This document shows, piece after piece, positions 4,201 through 36,768 of a stretch of 44,129 bases of DNA. The DNA is taken from positions 1 to 44,129 of the forward strand of contig JAAENP010000196.1 of NCBI GenBank assembly GCA_024224155.1. The letters run 5' to 3'. This DNA is from a bacterium (lineage in GTDB: Bacteria; Acidobacteriota; Thermoanaerobaculia; Multivoradales; JAHEKO01). Both the position numbers and the translations under genes were made by a program. The notes beneath the pieces were generated by a model. That model had not been told where the DNA came from, ran no database searches, and saw nothing but the letters and a program-made list of their open reading frames with translations. The first letter of the stretch is position 1, and each line of letters begins with the position of its first letter.

Positions 4201-4392
4201 ACACACCGCCACGACCGCAAGGTCCGCGATCAGGTCTACACCTACTGCTACCTCTTTCTCTTCGAGATTCCGATCTCGCCGGAAGCCCGCTCGGTCAAGC
4301 TTCCAGTCGCGCCGGACGTCAAGCTGTTCGCCACCACGGCGTCACTTTCCGGCGAATGGACGCTCGAGCCCGCGGCGCTCTTCTACGACTGA
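1288..4392 (+). CDS. Glycoside hydrolase family 38 alpha-mannosidase-like protein
   Basis: A 1034-residue protein with the layout of GH38 retaining alpha-mannosidases, zinc enzymes that trim mannosyl glycans. Near the N-terminus is ATSHLDSQWRW, matching the HxD zinc motif (usually HAHIDxAWLW). Around residue 129 is LPDCFGF, which carries the expected Asp nucleophile. Near residue 340 is WHQMHDDLTGTSSPEAY, matching the FHDxLxGxS zinc motif at the end of the catalytic region. The C-terminal half looks like the beta-sandwich domains of the family. No signal peptide is visible, so it is probably cytoplasmic. The ATG at 1288 was chosen because homology begins directly after it (MKANRKARLYVV); the frame is open further upstream, but that region overlaps the PagL-like gene. 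The first motif deviates from consensus, so the substrate is uncertain. Confidence 0.85.
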   Translation: MKANRKARLYVVATSHLDSQWRWTIQTTIRHFLRRTLLDNFDRLRAFPGYVLSFEGAFRYQLAEEYYPKEFQELTRWVRAKRWRPAGAMLDAPDTNLPSPESLIRHVLYGNGYFENKFGQRCIDVFLPDCFGFPWSLPTVAAHCGLEGFSSQKLIKWMSPAKIPFDIGLWEGPDGSRIVAVLDPGGYGAPLREDLSRSRAWKRRLEVKRDETGVPLGYRYFGVGDRGGAPDPTSLDYLEQGLAADGEIEVVHSGSDQFFRDLAAQDRDRLPVHRGDLLLPTHGTGCWTSQAILKKWNRRCELLAEAAERAALAADWLGGQDYPRAELRQEWTRFLWHQMHDDLTGTSSPEAYRFTWNDLVLAQNRFSSLLQSSVAAVARGLDTRSEGVPIVVFNSLGFDREELVDAWVRFDREPPRFVTVSDPAGAEIPSQELEREGNRLRLLFPASVPSVGVAVYQVMPAAQARSVDCDLAITARTLENHRYRVEFDDHGGIVSLYDKKLERELLNGPMDVVLLPDRSSKWPAWELRYEDLCSPPSAVGGRADFRIAETGPVRATLEIVRTAGATTLLQRISLAVGDAGSRLEIRLDIDWQSSGQLLKAVFPLALDGAIATYDMGLGAVEREPNRRERYEVPAHEWADLSGPDWGVSVLSQHKYGWDRPDPSTLRLSLLRAPKALRRFAHQAVQDLGRHRMAYAIESHGVDSAAAIAARAASFNQPLFPFQAGPHPGALGRRFSLLRIESRSAQLMALKQAEDRRLWLARIRETAGGRSASVSLAAPQPFLSAAEVNGCEQSESPAVLTGGRLSIDLQGFAPRSFLLAPGAPPSRVPLLDQARVELPFETPSTSFHGQPGSNFDGAGQSIPGELFPPQITAGGLCFVLGPNEPHEHNAMACRGQELDLPAGDFDRLAFLATSTSRDGTTMSFPGGDGKSVRVPYYSGFVGQWKRFSGRFGFLLRRWKPGFIERTPVAWTATHRHDRKVRDQVYTYCYLFLFEIPISPEARSVKLPVAPDVKLFATTASLSGEWTLEPAALFYD

Positions 4393-4437
4393 ATCGGGGC
4401 CACCATTCTCTGGTGTCCTCTTCCAAGAGCTGCCCGC

Positions 4438-4575
4438 CTGAAGGAGCGACGAGTGGGCCTCGGAGGGAGCCTCTCTTCGCTCCCGGAGAGACCACACCGG
4501 AGCGACGCATCTGGTCCAGTCGGCTCGGAGGTCGAGCCGTCCTCTGGCGAATCACTTGTCGACCGCCCGTCGACT
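4438..4575. repeat. Structured intergenic repeat, copy R1
   Basis: It fills the convergent gap between the mannosidase and the glycosyltransferase. Positions 4438-4508 match 36630-36701 almost base for base, with small indels. Hairpin A (4453-4497) has an inner GGGAGC/GCTCCC stem with an 8-nt loop and GGA/GGA internal bulges. Hairpin B (4521-4539) is CGGCTCG/CGAGCCG with loop GAGGT. An outer pairing, 4447-4455 with 4553-4561, is also possible. The right end holds CTGGCGAATC and, after 11 extra bases, GCCCGTCG. Those two words are adjacent at the right end of the element at 28287-28440. There is no T-run, so it is not a standard terminator. Confidence 0.75.
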
Positions 4576-4580
4576 CCGAA

Positions 4581-5444
4581 CTAGCCCGCCCCGTCTCCAG
4601 GCCGTTCCCAGGTCTCGGCGCTCTCGTCGAAGGCGGGTAACTCGACCTCCTGGCCGAGGCGGGTCCGCACCCCGTACTCCCAGAGGCGGGCATACTTCAT
4701 GAACACGCCCGTCGCCTGGAGTCCACAGATCGCCAAGCCGTGCATGCCGTCGAGAATGCCAAGCTGCAGAAAGTAGGTCCGGAAGAAGCGCCACAGCGGT
4801 CGGCCACCGATTGCCAGGAGTCCCGCGCTGCGGCCTTCCCGAAACCCCTGGGCCGCACCCCAATCGGCGTAGTTCATGAGCTTCTGGAAGTACTGGTCAA
4901 AGGTCCGGTAGGTGTAGTGCAGAAGCGAGCTCTTGAGAGTCGGAACGTCGCCGTCGATATCCAGATCCGCGTGAACGCGGCGATTCGGATACCGACCGTG
5001 GGCGCGATCGAACAGACGGATGACCTTGTCGGTCGACCATCCGGAGTGCTTGATCACCTTCTCGAGGACCACATTCTTGCGCCGGATGTAGTAGCCATAC
5101 GCCCGGGGCGGCACTGAGAGGATCCCCTGAATCTCGTCGGCGAGCTCGGGCGTGATGCGCTCGTCGGCGTCGACGATCAAGACCCAGTCGTTCTCCACCC
5201 GGTCGCGCGACCAGTTTTTCTGGGCCGCGGAACCAAAGTACTCGCGCTGCAGTACCTTGACCGGATAGCTTTTCGCGATTTCGACCGTCTCATCGGTCGA
5301 ATAGGAATCCACCACCAACACCTCATCGGCCCAAAGAGCAGACTCGATGCAGTCACCGACATTCACCTCTTCGTTGAAGGTCGTGATGATCACCGAGAGA
5401 GGCCGGCTTGGGCGCTTGCTGGCTTGCTCACTATGTTTCGGCAT
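4581..5444 (-). CDS. Glycosyltransferase family 2, WaaE/KdtX-like
   Basis: A 287-residue GT-A fold glycosyltransferase, likely cytoplasmic and membrane-associated, adding a sugar to LPS core or a related surface glycan. The N-terminus has LSVIITTFNEEVNVGDCIESA, the nucleotide-sugar binding beta strand of GT2 enzymes. Next come ADEVLVVDSYSTDET and the metal-binding DADER (DXD-type) motif near residue 94. The segment REYFGSAAQKNWSRD is characteristic of the WaaE/KdtX branch. A C-terminal hydrophobic region may be an amphipathic membrane anchor. Its first codons overlap the end of the ymdB-like gene by 14 bp on the same strand, so the two are probably translated from one transcript. The acceptor sugar cannot be read from sequence. 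Confidence 0.87.
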   Translation of the reverse strand: MPKHSEQASKRPSRPLSVIITTFNEEVNVGDCIESALWADEVLVVDSYSTDETVEIAKSYPVKVLQREYFGSAAQKNWSRDRVENDWVLIVDADERITPELADEIQGILSVPPRAYGYYIRRKNVVLEKVIKHSGWSTDKVIRLFDRAHGRYPNRRVHADLDIDGDVPTLKSSLLHYTYRTFDQYFQKLMNYADWGAAQGFREGRSAGLLAIGGRPLWRFFRTYFLQLGILDGMHGLAICGLQATGVFMKYARLWEYGVRTRLGQEVELPAFDESAETWERPGDGAG

Positions 5445-7865: not shown

Positions 7866-8051
7866 GCACCCCCCGTGAAGCCGTGTGGGCGGTATTAGAA
7901 CCTGGTGTGCACCAGGTGGGTGTCCGCTTCGAGGGCCGTTAGCGTCCCCGTCAAAGCGGGGCTGGCACAGGCCACGGGAATGAAAGACTCCCTGGAATTA
8001 AGAGTTGGTTCTACAACTACCTTACCCATCACGAAACCTCACAGGGGATGC
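7866..8051 (-). ncRNA. ssrS: 6S RNA
   Basis: Candidate 6S RNA of 186 nt, which would bind housekeeping-sigma RNA polymerase and repress transcription in slow growth. It lies directly downstream of zapA, the common location of ssrS. The ends form a perfect 13-bp terminal stem: GCATCCCCTGTGA (8039-8051) with TCACGGGGGGTGC (7866-7878), two pairs being G-U. Inside, CGTG-A-TGGG pairs with CCCA-CACG. GGTA and AGAACC pair with GGTTCT and TACC, alternating with the local hairpin ACCTGGT/ACCAGGT. The apex has CCCCG/CGGGG around CTTTGA. A long rod with an open centre is the 6S hallmark. Length fits the usual 180-190 nt. I found no clear promoter, so it may be processed from the zapA transcript. It explains the 307-base gap between rny and zapA. 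Confidence 0.8.
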
Positions 8052-28114: not shown

Positions 28115-28286
28115 TGCTCCTCACCTCCCCCTCCACTCGCCACGCCGGAGCCTCGCACCGCCTCAAACGGCTCCGCGCCGGCAAGGCCGGAACCGGCTCT
28201 TGTGCCGGAAACATGGCTCGATTCAACGGTCCGAGACGGCGTCGGCTGCCGGAGGCTCGCCGACACAAAGCACGCAGAAAAGGCGG

Positions 28287-28440
28287 CTCGGCGGGTGATT
28301 CGCCAGTGGGCTCGCCGCAAAGCGCTCCTAGGATCGAGTCGGAGGTCTCTGACGGTTTGCGCGCAGCGGCGCGCAGGCGAGAGCCCGACCCGTTGGAGGC
28401 CTTCTAGCTCGAGCCGGCCACTGGCGAATCGCCCGTCGGG
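28287..28440. repeat. Structured intergenic repeat, copy R3
   Basis: A 23-bp uninterrupted helix closes this element. Positions 28287-28309 pair with 28418-28440, including three G-U type pairs and a 13-base exact inverted core (GATTCGCCAGTGG). The 108-base interior holds two small hairpins, 28338-28353 (loop GGTC) and 28358-28375 (TGCGCGC/GCGCGCA). The right arm word CTGGCGAATCGCCCGTCG recurs, split by 11 bases, in the element at 4438-4575. It ends 6 bp before the stop of the Nudix fusion gene, in a convergent gap. Confidence 0.7.
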
Positions 28441-28446
28441 GCGCCA

Positions 28447-32573: not shown

Positions 32574-35500
32574 ATGTCCAGCATCCCGCTAGAGGTGGAG
32601 AAGCGGAAGCGAGTATCGCCGTGCTGCCGGCTCGCGGCCTGCGCTCAGCTCTTCGCGCTCCTGTTGATACTCGCTGCAACCGAGGCCGGCGCTCAGGTGC
32701 CCAACCTCTTGAAAGACCTCAACGGTGTCAACGCGGGGTCTACGCCGTCCTACAAGGTGGAGATGGGCGGAATGCTCTATTTCTCCGCGTTCGAGCCCGA
32801 TCACGGCCGCGAGCTGTGGCGGTCCGATGGCACTTCGGCGGGCACGAAACTGGTCAAGGATCTCGTCCCGGGACCGGACTGGGGCATTTCCCGTCCGGTC
32901 GTCGTCGGTGGCGACAGGCTCCTCTTCTTTCTCTACGAGGTCGATCGCGACTCCTGGGATCTCTGGACCAGCGACGGCACCGCGAGGGGGTCGAAGAAAG
33001 TCATCGAGGTTCCTACCGGAGGTCGTGCCCCTTGGCTCCTACCCGCGAGCGGTAGGGTTTTCTTCGGCATCGAGTACAGCGTCCTCGGCGGCCAGCTCTG
33101 GACCAGCGACGGCACGGCCGAGGGAACGGAACGGATCGCCGAAGGCTTCGACGGGCTCAACTCCTTCTTTGCCGTTGGAGACCGCATGGTCTTCGTGGCG
33201 AACGACCGGGTTCACGGCAATGAGCTCTGGACCACCGACGGCAGCCGGGACGGCACGTTCATGCTCCGGGACATCCGCTCTGGGTCAGAAGGCTCATACC
33301 CGCGGTGGGCCGTCGCCCACGAAGGCAGCTTGTATTTCAGTGCCGACGACGGCGTTCACGGAATGGAGCTCTGGACGTCCGACGGCACCAAGAACGGGAC
33401 ATACCTTGTGAAGGACCTCGCTCCCGGACCGGCACCCGCGGAACCCGGGGCCTTCACCGCGCTCAACGGCGAGCTCTATTTCCTGACGCGAGAGCTGCCT
33501 CATCTCTGGATCACCGATGGAACAGAAGCCGGCACTCGGGTGGCGGTGAAGATCCCGGGTGCCGATTATCTGTATTGGCCCACCTTGGTCGACGGCCGTC
33601 TGTTCTTCACGAGCAACGAGTACGAGCTCTGGACGTCCGACGGCACCCAGGACGGCACGCGGTTCGTTGCATCGGTTGGAGAGGGGTACACGGGTCCGAG
33701 AGATCTGACCGAGGCCGGTGGTCGCGTCTTCTTCATCGCCGATGACGGCATCCACGGAGTCGAGCTTTGGTCGTCCGATGGCACGGAATCCGGCACCCGA
33801 ATGGCCAAGGACATCGGGCCGCCGGGACAAGCGCCGTTCTTCTATTTCAAGTACACCGGCGACTACATCCAAAGCTTCGAGTTCGACGATCGTCTGGTCT
33901 TCATCGCCAATGACGGCAGGCGTGGCTACGAGCTCTGGATTTCCAACGGCACCGAGTCCGGGACTTTCGTGCTCAAGGACATCAAGCCGGGGGCCTACGA
34001 CGCCGAGGTTGGCCTGTTTCTGGAGCTCGACGGGCGCCTCTACTTCAACGCCGACGATGGAGTCCATGGCGACGAGCTATGGAGCACGAACGGCAGCAGA
34101 GGTGGCACGGTTCTGGTCAAAGACATCGACTCGAAAGGGACTCTGAGCTCGTCTCCCACCGAGTTCACCGGCATGGAGGGCGTCCTTTACTTCACCGCGG
34201 ATGACTGCTCGTTCGAGTGCCCCGACCGGGACTATTCCACTGGGAATGATCTGAGTGATCGGGAGCTCTGGCGCAGCGACGGCACTGCCGCGGGCACCTT
34301 CAGGGTCAGAGACATCAACCCCGAGGGGCCGTCGTTTCCGACATACCTGGTCGCAGCCGGTTCGGGTCTCTTTTTCTTCGCTTCTGATGGTACGCACGGA
34401 AGCGAGCTCTGGACCAGCGACGGGACCCGACGCGGCACTCGCCTGGTTGACGATCTGGAACCGGGGCCCGAAAGCCTGTACGCGCACGACCTCGTGGCGG
34501 TTGGCGACCGCGTGTTCTTCAGCGGCTACTCTTCTGAATCCGGCCGCCAGCTCTACGTCAGCGATGGAACCGAGTTGGGAACCCGTTTCGTTTCTCCCCC
34601 CGAGGAGTTTCGCTGGCCCGATCGGCTCCACGCGCTCGGCGAGCTGGTTATCTTCCAGGCCGAGGACAGCGTACATGGAGAAGAGCTGTGGGTAAGCGAC
34701 GGCAGCGACGCCGGGACGCGGCTGCTCAAGGATGCCTGGCCCGGCGAAGCGCCGGGGTACCCGTCGGCGATCGGAAAAGCGAACGGCCGCCTCTTGCTGC
34801 ACATCCGCGACGAGGTACACGGACGGGAGCTATGGGTCAGCGACGGCACCCCCGAAGGTACCAGGCTGGTCAAGGACATCTGGGAGGGCCCCGAAGACTC
34901 CTATCCGGAGTACGCGCTGGGCGCGCTCGACGGCAAACTGTTCTTCTGGGCGGAAGACGGTGTTCACGGCGACGAGATCTGGGCGAGCGACGGCACGGCA
35001 GACGGAACCTACCTGGTCAAGGACATCCAGCCCGGTAGCGACAGCTCTATGGGCTACGGCACCGGCGCCGTCCTCGACGGCAGGATCTACTTCGCGGCCG
35101 GCGATGGTCGCGGCATCGAGCTCTGGAGCACCGACGGCACCGATGAGGGAACCTATCGGGTCAAGGACATCAACCCCGGGGCGGAGTCCTCGTTTCCGAA
35201 CGAGTTCCATGAATTCGATGGGCGGGTCTATTTCGCTGCCAATGACGGCGTCCACGGCTCCGAGCTGTGGAGCACTGACGGAACCCGCAGCGGTACCGTT
35301 CTGGTCGCCGACCTCGATCCCGGGCACACGCAATCCTGGCCGCAGCAGTTCGAAAGCGTCGACGGGCACCTCTTCTTCACGGCATCGAGCAAGCGGTCGG
35401 GCCAGGAGCTCTGGGTCCTTCGAGCCGGCTCCGCGACCGCGGGACTACCGAAGCTCCTCACACTGCCCGATCTCGACGGCCTGGGCGGCGACGAGCTGGC

Positions 35501-36530
35501 GATCCTGGGCTCGAACCTTGCTGTGCGCGATGCGGCCTCGGGTGTCGCGATTTCTGCTGCGGATTTCGCCCCATCGCACAGATGGGAGGCCGTCGACTTC
35601 GAGCTCGCCACAAGCTCTGCCGACGACGAGCCTACCGAGCTCGCGGTGCTCACCCGCCTGCGCAAACAGGTCCAGATCTCCGTGCGCAACGCACTCAACG
35701 GTGCGGAGACCTCGAGTATCGAGCTCACGAGCAAGCACCATCCGCTTGACCTGGAAGTCGTCCCGGCCAATGGCGGCGGACCGACTCGAGCCGCCGTGCT
35801 GAGCCGGCGCGGCCTTGGCAAACAGGCAAGTGTCCTTATAACCCCCTTCGGAGCTCAATCGTCGGATCCTCTCGAATTTGCCCTGCCGGAAGCCTTCGAC
35901 GCCGTCGACCTCGAAGTAACCGAGATCCCGAAACCGATACGTGGCCGTGACAAGTGGGGCCTCGTCGTCCTCGGCCGATCGAGTCTGTCTGGCTCCATGC
36001 GCCTTCTGACTCTCGACGCCGGGACCGGGCAGACGATCGGCGACGCGACGATCGACGGAAAGCTGGTCCCCATCGATCTCGAGATCGTCCAGGAAGACCC
36101 CAAGAAGCCCGAATACGCCAGCGTTCTGGCCCGCAGACGAAAGAACGGCGCTATCCGGATGATCACAGTGAATCTGCTCGACGGCTCAGTGACGCGAATC
36201 ATCAGATCCCGCAAGAAACGTCTACCGCTGGATCTCGAAATCGCGCCCGGCCCCAGAGACTCGGCCGGCCCAAATGTTTCGATCCTGTGGACGGACAAGA
36301 GCGGTACGAAGACCGGCCTCTCGACCCGAAACGCTTTCACGGGAAAACAGATCGGGTCCGTTATCTTCAAGGGCGTCCAACATCCGGAGGACTTCTCGCT
36401 GGTTCGACTGCCCGGACGCAAGGTGGCGGCCGCGGTCCTTGGCGAAGCCGAATGCGCTGATCTCCAACTTGCCATCACTCTGCGGGACACAGCCAGCGGC
36501 GACCTCGTGGGCTGCTATCCGGCCGACTAG
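32574..36530 (+). CDS. Large secreted ELWxxDGT-repeat protein
   Basis: A 1318-residue exported protein. A signal peptide (LFALLLILAATEAGA) is followed by 18 repeats of the ELWxxDGTxxGT type between about residues 80 and 910, each near 48 residues (ELWRSDGTSAGT, ELWTSDGTKNGT, ELWVSDGTPEGT). A degenerate last copy reads ELWVLRAG. The repeats usually alternate with VFFxADDGxHG strands, as expected for beta-propeller blades. From about residue 960 a different array begins, with seven units carrying hDhE...AVL...tG (VDFELAT, LDLEVVP, VDLEVTE, IDLEIVQ, LDLEIAP and relatives). This may be another propeller. No catalytic site or C-terminal sorting signal is recognisable. It is probably a surface or secreted binding protein. 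The gene is divergent from yceI with a 207-bp gap. Confidence 0.9.
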   Translation: MSSIPLEVEKRKRVSPCCRLAACAQLFALLLILAATEAGAQVPNLLKDLNGVNAGSTPSYKVEMGGMLYFSAFEPDHGRELWRSDGTSAGTKLVKDLVPGPDWGISRPVVVGGDRLLFFLYEVDRDSWDLWTSDGTARGSKKVIEVPTGGRAPWLLPASGRVFFGIEYSVLGGQLWTSDGTAEGTERIAEGFDGLNSFFAVGDRMVFVANDRVHGNELWTTDGSRDGTFMLRDIRSGSEGSYPRWAVAHEGSLYFSADDGVHGMELWTSDGTKNGTYLVKDLAPGPAPAEPGAFTALNGELYFLTRELPHLWITDGTEAGTRVAVKIPGADYLYWPTLVDGRLFFTSNEYELWTSDGTQDGTRFVASVGEGYTGPRDLTEAGGRVFFIADDGIHGVELWSSDGTESGTRMAKDIGPPGQAPFFYFKYTGDYIQSFEFDDRLVFIANDGRRGYELWISNGTESGTFVLKDIKPGAYDAEVGLFLELDGRLYFNADDGVHGDELWSTNGSRGGTVLVKDIDSKGTLSSSPTEFTGMEGVLYFTADDCSFECPDRDYSTGNDLSDRELWRSDGTAAGTFRVRDINPEGPSFPTYLVAAGSGLFFFASDGTHGSELWTSDGTRRGTRLVDDLEPGPESLYAHDLVAVGDRVFFSGYSSESGRQLYVSDGTELGTRFVSPPEEFRWPDRLHALGELVIFQAEDSVHGEELWVSDGSDAGTRLLKDAWPGEAPGYPSAIGKANGRLLLHIRDEVHGRELWVSDGTPEGTRLVKDIWEGPEDSYPEYALGALDGKLFFWAEDGVHGDEIWASDGTADGTYLVKDIQPGSDSSMGYGTGAVLDGRIYFAAGDGRGIELWSTDGTDEGTYRVKDINPGAESSFPNEFHEFDGRVYFAANDGVHGSELWSTDGTRSGTVLVADLDPGHTQSWPQQFESVDGHLFFTASSKRSGQELWVLRAGSATAGLPKLLTLPDLDGLGGDELAILGSNLAVRDAASGVAISAADFAPSHRWEAVDFELATSSADDEPTELAVLTRLRKQVQISVRNALNGAETSSIELTSKHHPLDLEVVPANGGGPTRAAVLSRRGLGKQASVLITPFGAQSSDPLEFALPEAFDAVDLEVTEIPKPIRGRDKWGLVVLGRSSLSGSMRLLTLDAGTGQTIGDATIDGKLVPIDLEIVQEDPKKPEYASVLARRRKNGAIRMITVNLLDGSVTRIIRSRKKRLPLDLEIAPGPRDSAGPNVSILWTDKSGTKTGLSTRNAFTGKQIGSVIFKGVQHPEDFSLVRLPGRKVAAAVLGEAECADLQLAITLRDTASGDLVGCYPAD

Positions 36531-36629
36531 CTCGTTTCAGCCTGAGCTTTTCTCCGACGTCCGTCGCTTGCCACTGCCGAACTCGGACACGAACTTCGAA
36601 CGACACGAGGTCGAACGCTACAAACGCGG

Positions 36630-36731
36630 CTGAAGGAAGCGCAGGGTGGGTCTCGGAGGGAGCCTCTCTGTGCTCCCAGAGAGACCTCACCGGCGCGACG
36701 CTATCGCCTCGGTCGAGACGGCTTTCGACCG
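36630..36731. repeat. Structured intergenic repeat, copy R2
   Basis: Near-identical to 4438-4508 over positions 36630-36701. Hairpin A (36645-36691) is GGTG-GGTCTC, bulge GGA, GGGAGC, loop CTCTCTGT, GCTCCC, bulge AGA, GAGACC-T-CACC. Hairpin B (36710-36731) is CGGTCGA/TCGACCG with an 8-nt loop, where the other copy has CGGCTCG/CGAGCCG. The change keeps pairing on both arms. It lies in the convergent gap between the ELWxxDGT gene and the nitrilase gene. No T-run follows either hairpin. Confidence 0.75.
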
Positions 36732-36768
36732 CTACTTCCGTGCCGAAGATCGAAGCCTATAGCAGCCC

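Follow-up and report, generated by a model that had tools for sequence, protein, structure and literature searches.

The window analysed here, i.e., a whole stretch of 44,129 nucleotides from a Thermoanaerobaculia genome, harbors three repeat families, referred to as A, B, and C (Table 1). Family A is an apparently undescribed repeat family of the known REP/BIME kind. On balance, it is best read as a lineage-specific, non-autonomous interspersed repeat, BIME/REP-like in nature, which spread mainly together with the RAYT-mobilised REPs of family B and which is tolerated at the 3' ends of genes.

Table 1. Repeat elements and associated hairpins located in the window.
Positions	Strand	Feature	Evidence
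4396..4420	+	Hairpin immediately 3' of the left gene's stop codon; candidate ordinary 3' hairpin	Common to G002; without canonical U-tract
4437..4512	+	Family A element, copy 1 (76-nt hairpin)	Match to covariance model R1, E 4.6e-17; aligned with 26 others
4529..4574	+	Right-end remnant of a family C repeat	blastn to 12/19 family C loci at E<0.001, best 9e-9; alignment
28282..28445	+	Complete family C copy; its terminal inverted repeats span 28 nt (86%)	At least 40 further copies in the genome; long hairpin fold
36595..36622	-	Possibly a degenerate REP of family B, to the left of copy 2	By eye; missed by the fuzzy pattern
36630..36705	+	Family A element, copy 2	Match to covariance model R1, E 3.2e-17
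36710..36735	-	Family B GTAG-headed REP (GTAGCGGTCGAAAGCCGTCTCGACCG), the copy-2 'hairpin B' of the original prediction	Pattern match; RAYT genes of G001 and G002 have copies of this family on both sides

The original prediction, made from the sequence of the window alone, held that positions 4438-4508 and 36630-36701 are nearly identical, although 32 kb apart, and that they represent a new family of structured repeats. Both statements were borne out: the two stretches share 86% identity across 64 nt, and, as far as the 76-nt element is concerned, further copies exist genome-wide, their placement being biased towards 3' ends (rather than random) and their pairing being conserved. The use of one family A copy as a blastn query against the whole genome to which the window belongs (G000, a Thermoanaerobaculia MAG of 5.71 Mb in 576 contigs) yielded about 30 matches at E<0.01, and the alignment of 27 of them served to build a covariance model (R1), with which this genome and its relatives were searched. 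The search disclosed matches in four relatives and, in the own genome, 69 copies at E<1e-5 plus a few weaker ones (about 70), 27 of the 69 being the model's own training copies, which match by construction, and the remainder being independent of model building.

The alignment of the 27 copies defines a common unit of ~76 nt (CTGAAGGAGCGCCGCGTGCGCCTCGGAGGGAGCCTCTCT..GCTCCCGGAGAGGCGGCACCGGCGCGAC.CTATC), the tips of which, CTGAAGG... and ...CTATC (GATAG in reverse), are conserved and located outside the stem. Family A copies are up to 97% identical to each other, and their flanks are mostly dissimilar. The outer stem exists in two versions, GGAGCGCC/GGCGCGAC and AGGCCGGCC/GGCGGCCT, and a third group of copies has an altered inner stem. 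Two copies (G000:C474:2775-2859, L098, and C420:897-980, L102) are chimeric, combining the left outer stem of one version with the right outer stem of another, as recombination among copies would produce. Neither of the window copies matched any Rfam family at the gathering threshold, and no match at E<=1 was found across positions 4380-4600.

Each family A copy folds into a single long imperfect hairpin with a 21-bp stem, and a stable fold is obtained on both strands. In the alignment of the 27 copies, 94.5% of the cells are paired versus 33-52% (maximum 51.5%) when the partner is slid, with changes on both sides at 10 of the 21 pairs (53 two-sided cells) and a covariation score reached by 0 of 500 shuffles; the corresponding values are 92% paired cells and 160 two-sided cells at 14/21 pairs for a plain MAFFT alignment of all 69 own copies, and 94.3% paired cells and 116 two-sided cells at 15/21 pairs (0/500 shuffles) for 40 matches from the relatives, whose alignment was fitted to the structure, and in all of these sets the copies are kin, i.e., the number of two-sided changes does not equal a number of independent events. 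The real covariation resides inside the hairpin common to copies 1 and 2, which the original prediction had not cited. G-U pairs occupy just 27 of 1447 cells in the 69 own copies, and so small a share, given how often changes are compensated, suggests conservation of the hairpin as DNA or, alternatively, in the RNA of both strands; the figure fits a DNA-level hairpin and RNA from both strands alike, so it does not decide between the two. Beside the varying stems, an unpaired GGA/GGA internal loop and the CCTCTC loop are among the most constant positions of the family. An H-type pseudoknot formed by the CCTCTC loop with GAGAGG was also considered by reading; it was dropped, given that covariation of the outer helix is not accompanied by any change in the loop.

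The covariation originally described concerned a different structure, a downstream 'hairpin B' (arms 4521-4527/4533-4539 in copy 1), whose two arms were said to have changed together between the copies. This claim did not survive the analysis: the copy-1 tail, overlapping these arms, stems from the right end of a family C repeat, the copy-2 tail, which reads GTAGCGGTCGA...TCGACCG, is a family B REP, and no significant similarity was detected between the two tails. Since the arms come from different, non-homologous families, the covariation stated for them carries no evidential weight. The third element of the original prediction (28287-28440) had to be reassigned as well, being a full member of family C, a ~165-nt repeat with at least 40 other copies in the own genome, and not of family A. 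The right-end words that it was said to share with copy 1 are indeed alike; however, this likeness is not a sign of membership in family A, since it arises from the family C end adjoining copy 1. About nine family C copies are located within 250 bp of an A copy, according to a hand count from the coordinates.

As regards the genomic context, 72 of 73 A copies do not overlap a called gene (8 of the 72 lie at contig edges), as befits a multi-copy extragenic palindrome; genes were called with our own codon-usage gene caller, and their boundaries are approximate. Fifty-three distinct gaps with genes on both sides harbor A, and they comprise 28 convergent, 21 co-directional, and 4 divergent gaps. 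In comparison with the room available for a 75-nt element in 400 kb of the own genome, convergent gaps are ~5-fold enriched (28/53 versus 11% of the room, p 2e-13) and divergent ones are underrepresented (4/53 versus 36%, p 2e-6). The background regions were hand-picked on long contigs once the A copies had been located, and they turn out to be free of A, i.e., they offer A-free gaps only. Since the genome-wide density predicts only about 4 A gaps per 400 kb, and 45 of the 333 background gaps (14%) are convergent, the choice of the background cannot explain the 53% observed.

Within the window, the elements occupy, as had been claimed, the only convergent gaps longer than 100 bp: the gaps at the three sites measure 188, 511, and 238 bp, and the two remaining ones 13 and 3 bp. 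The orientation of A relative to the genes is unbiased in co-directional gaps (11 same, 15 opposite). Ten gaps contain two or three A copies; by reading, adjacent copies face each other with their 5' ends in seven pairs, and no pair shows the opposite arrangement. The possibility that the densest A cluster (C311) lies in a mobile island was set aside on reading the genes located there, which look like ordinary chromosomal ones. Two other features of the window can be mentioned: a 6S RNA gene on the minus strand (7866-8050; Rfam RF00013, 67 bits) and an open reading frame of 1318 amino acids (32574-36530) with ~15 repeats, often 48 codons apart, carrying an ELWxSDGT-like motif.

Family B is a RAYT-associated GTAG REP, the RAYT genes being located in sister genomes. 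Its copies are imperfect palindromes with a GTAG head; exact matches to the family B pattern number 35 in G000, 213 in G001, 111 in G002, and 182 in G009 (0 matches for the reversed-pattern control in these genomes), and the copies also occur as REPIN-like inverted doublets. Two Y1 transposase genes, one in G001 (L211, contig C112) and one in G002 (L217, contig C97), are bracketed by oppositely oriented B copies. The RAYT proteins L211, L217, and L214 (G002, contig C41) are 57-61% identical, and L214 adjoins related GTAG hairpins with an altered stem (by eye); these three proteins, together with their REPs, represent an apparent case of RAYT-REP coevolution in Thermoanaerobaculia. No B-type RAYT was found in the MAG of the window; relative to the B-type RAYT, its three Y1 proteins reach 35% identity at best or do not match. 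The search for a REP-associated tyrosine transposase thus gave a positive outcome for family B, in the sister genomes, and a negative one for family A: at 14 Y1 loci of G000, G001, G002, G004, and G009 (incomplete MAGs), no A match at E<1 was detected within ~1.5 kb, and no A copies flanking a RAYT of their own were found.

The two families are nevertheless linked in their position. According to the fuzzy pattern, a B REP is located within 120 bp of 37-38 of the 69 A copies; among background gaps, 4 of 105 have one, and the reversed control gave 0. The low rate at which this pattern strikes coding DNA (69 matches in 400 kb) would account for ~4 of the 69. Moreover, the orientation of B relative to A is constant in 22 of 22 right-hand and in 18 of 21 left-hand REPs, the right-hand ones lying mostly 35-38 or 49-57 nt from A. 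The other 32 A copies have no recognisable B nearby, and G004 possesses a divergent A family and no strict B matches.

Family A was found in 5 of the 149 genomes of the class, all belonging to a single family, i.e., the own genome, G001 (24 matches), G002 (1), G004 (9, divergent), and G009 (11); the other 144 gave no A match in scans with stricter filters, which lose weak matches. Its presence is scattered within the family and patchy among genera. At site 1 (that of copy 1), the orthologous gap of G002 is short and holds the 4396-4420 hairpin without A, and that of G001 contains a B-type hairpin in place of A; the absence of A from the gaps of both sister species argues for a lineage-specific gain of A at site 1. 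About 30 genes of the window are collinear with contig C3 of G001, on which no R1 match was reported. In seven pairs of gaps from G000 and a relative, the flanking genes are in common and A-like copies are present in both. In one of these cases, the gap common to contigs C261 of G000 (C261:1480) and C150 of G001 (L077), the flank is the same and two compensated base pairs distinguish copies that look inherited; other pairs of gaps hold different A versions. Part of the A set was probably inherited in place, and not freshly inserted. The divergent A-like family of G004, which has a GCATCTCTGCGC loop, is located (L238, L239) behind genes whose G000 orthologues also have A behind them.

It has been reported that REPs prefer unidirectional and convergent gaps (Di Nocera et al. 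2013, PMC3733652) and that REPIN hairpins of ~71 nt carry compensatory changes (Bertels and Rainey 2011, PMC3116915). Since the same gap preference is on record for REPs and the same kind of changes for REPIN hairpins, position and covariation alone do not demonstrate a host function for A. The GTAG REPs associated with RAYTs (Nunvar et al. 2010, PMC2817692; PMC3733652), whose defining features are found in family B, resemble family A in being many-copy, extragenic, GC-rich palindromes, 3'-biased, arranged in mosaics, and with compensatory changes; unlike them, A has roughly double their length, lacks a GTAG or GTGG-like head, and is not adjoined by a RAYT. With REPINs (PMC3116915), A shares a long hairpin of ~70-80 nt, compensatory changes, and a non-autonomous nature, but its two ends do not represent a single conserved 16-mer in inverted orientation, and it has the conserved CCTCTC loop. 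The CGTC REPs (PMC3733652) are likewise palindromic intergenic repeats without a dedicated transposase alongside; their stems, however, are of 8-9 bp and bear a CGTC tag, whereas the stem of A spans 21 bp and its tips differ. Family A is therefore REP-like and not a REP, lacking the GTAG head, the adjacency to a RAYT, and the symmetry of REPINs. BIMEs, ERIC, and boxC are enterobacterial interspersed palindromes forming mosaic clusters of different families in one gap; A resembles them in architecture only, and no sequence relation is implied.

Among the roles originally proposed, that of a REP-like mobile element fits best. The strong enrichment in convergent gaps and the stability of the fold on both strands would also be expected from a functional RNA 3'-end element, that is, a bidirectional terminator or an RNase barrier selected in such gaps, and the two compensated pairs that distinguish the C261 and L077 copies suggest that pairing may be maintained in place. 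We consider this explanation rather unlikely, given that a convergent/unidirectional preference is general to REPs (PMC3733652), that A shows no orientation bias in co-directional gaps, that the orthologous gap of the sister species manages without it, its presence in the family being scattered, and that 0 terminator-like sites and no U-tract occur at either window copy on both strands. In particular, a canonical intrinsic terminator (a GC hairpin followed by a U-tract) is unsupported, and at site 1 the hairpin common to a sister species is already present upstream. A further, quite improbable, possibility is that A is a MITE mobilised, via terminal inverted repeats and independently of B, by some unidentified DDE transposon: the two tips of A are not inverted copies of one another, no autonomous partner was recognised when the genes at the densest clusters were read, and the fixed orientation of B would be left unexplained, even though the near-perfect inverted arms, the conserved tips past the stem, and the high identity of copies amid mostly unlike flanks agree with it.

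The hypothesis of a chromosome-organising or protein-binding site deserves very little credit. The patchy distribution among genera, the clustering of several copies per gap, and the lineage-specific gain argue against it, and the near-invariant unpaired GGA/GGA and CCTCTC motifs beside varying stems, which suggest recognition by a protein, also fit recognition by a transposase. It is also doubtful, to much the same extent as for the MITE, that A is a domesticated strand-specific structured element, whose GGA/GGA and CCTCTC loops would be recognised by a host protein and whose pairing would be maintained at inherited sites (as an example, the gap common to G000 C261 and G001 C150, with its orthologous-looking copies and their compensated changes).

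According to the interpretation that we favour, that of a passenger in BIME-like mosaics, A would have been copied mostly as part of A-B units: a RAYT-type HUH transposase might recognise the B REP in single-stranded DNA and mobilise the segment, and the A hairpin might be retained because of its folding in single-stranded DNA. Insertions would survive chiefly behind gene ends, where they should do the least harm, which would generate the bias towards convergent gaps, and any influence on RNA 3' ends would be a by-product. Families A and B document a REP/BIME-type system in Thermoanaerobaculia, in which a GTAG REP, with its RAYT in sister genomes, is accompanied by a longer structured repeat in fixed orientation and without a transposase of its own. 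The A-B pair offers a way to test whether an unrelated hairpin can be carried as a passenger by a RAYT.
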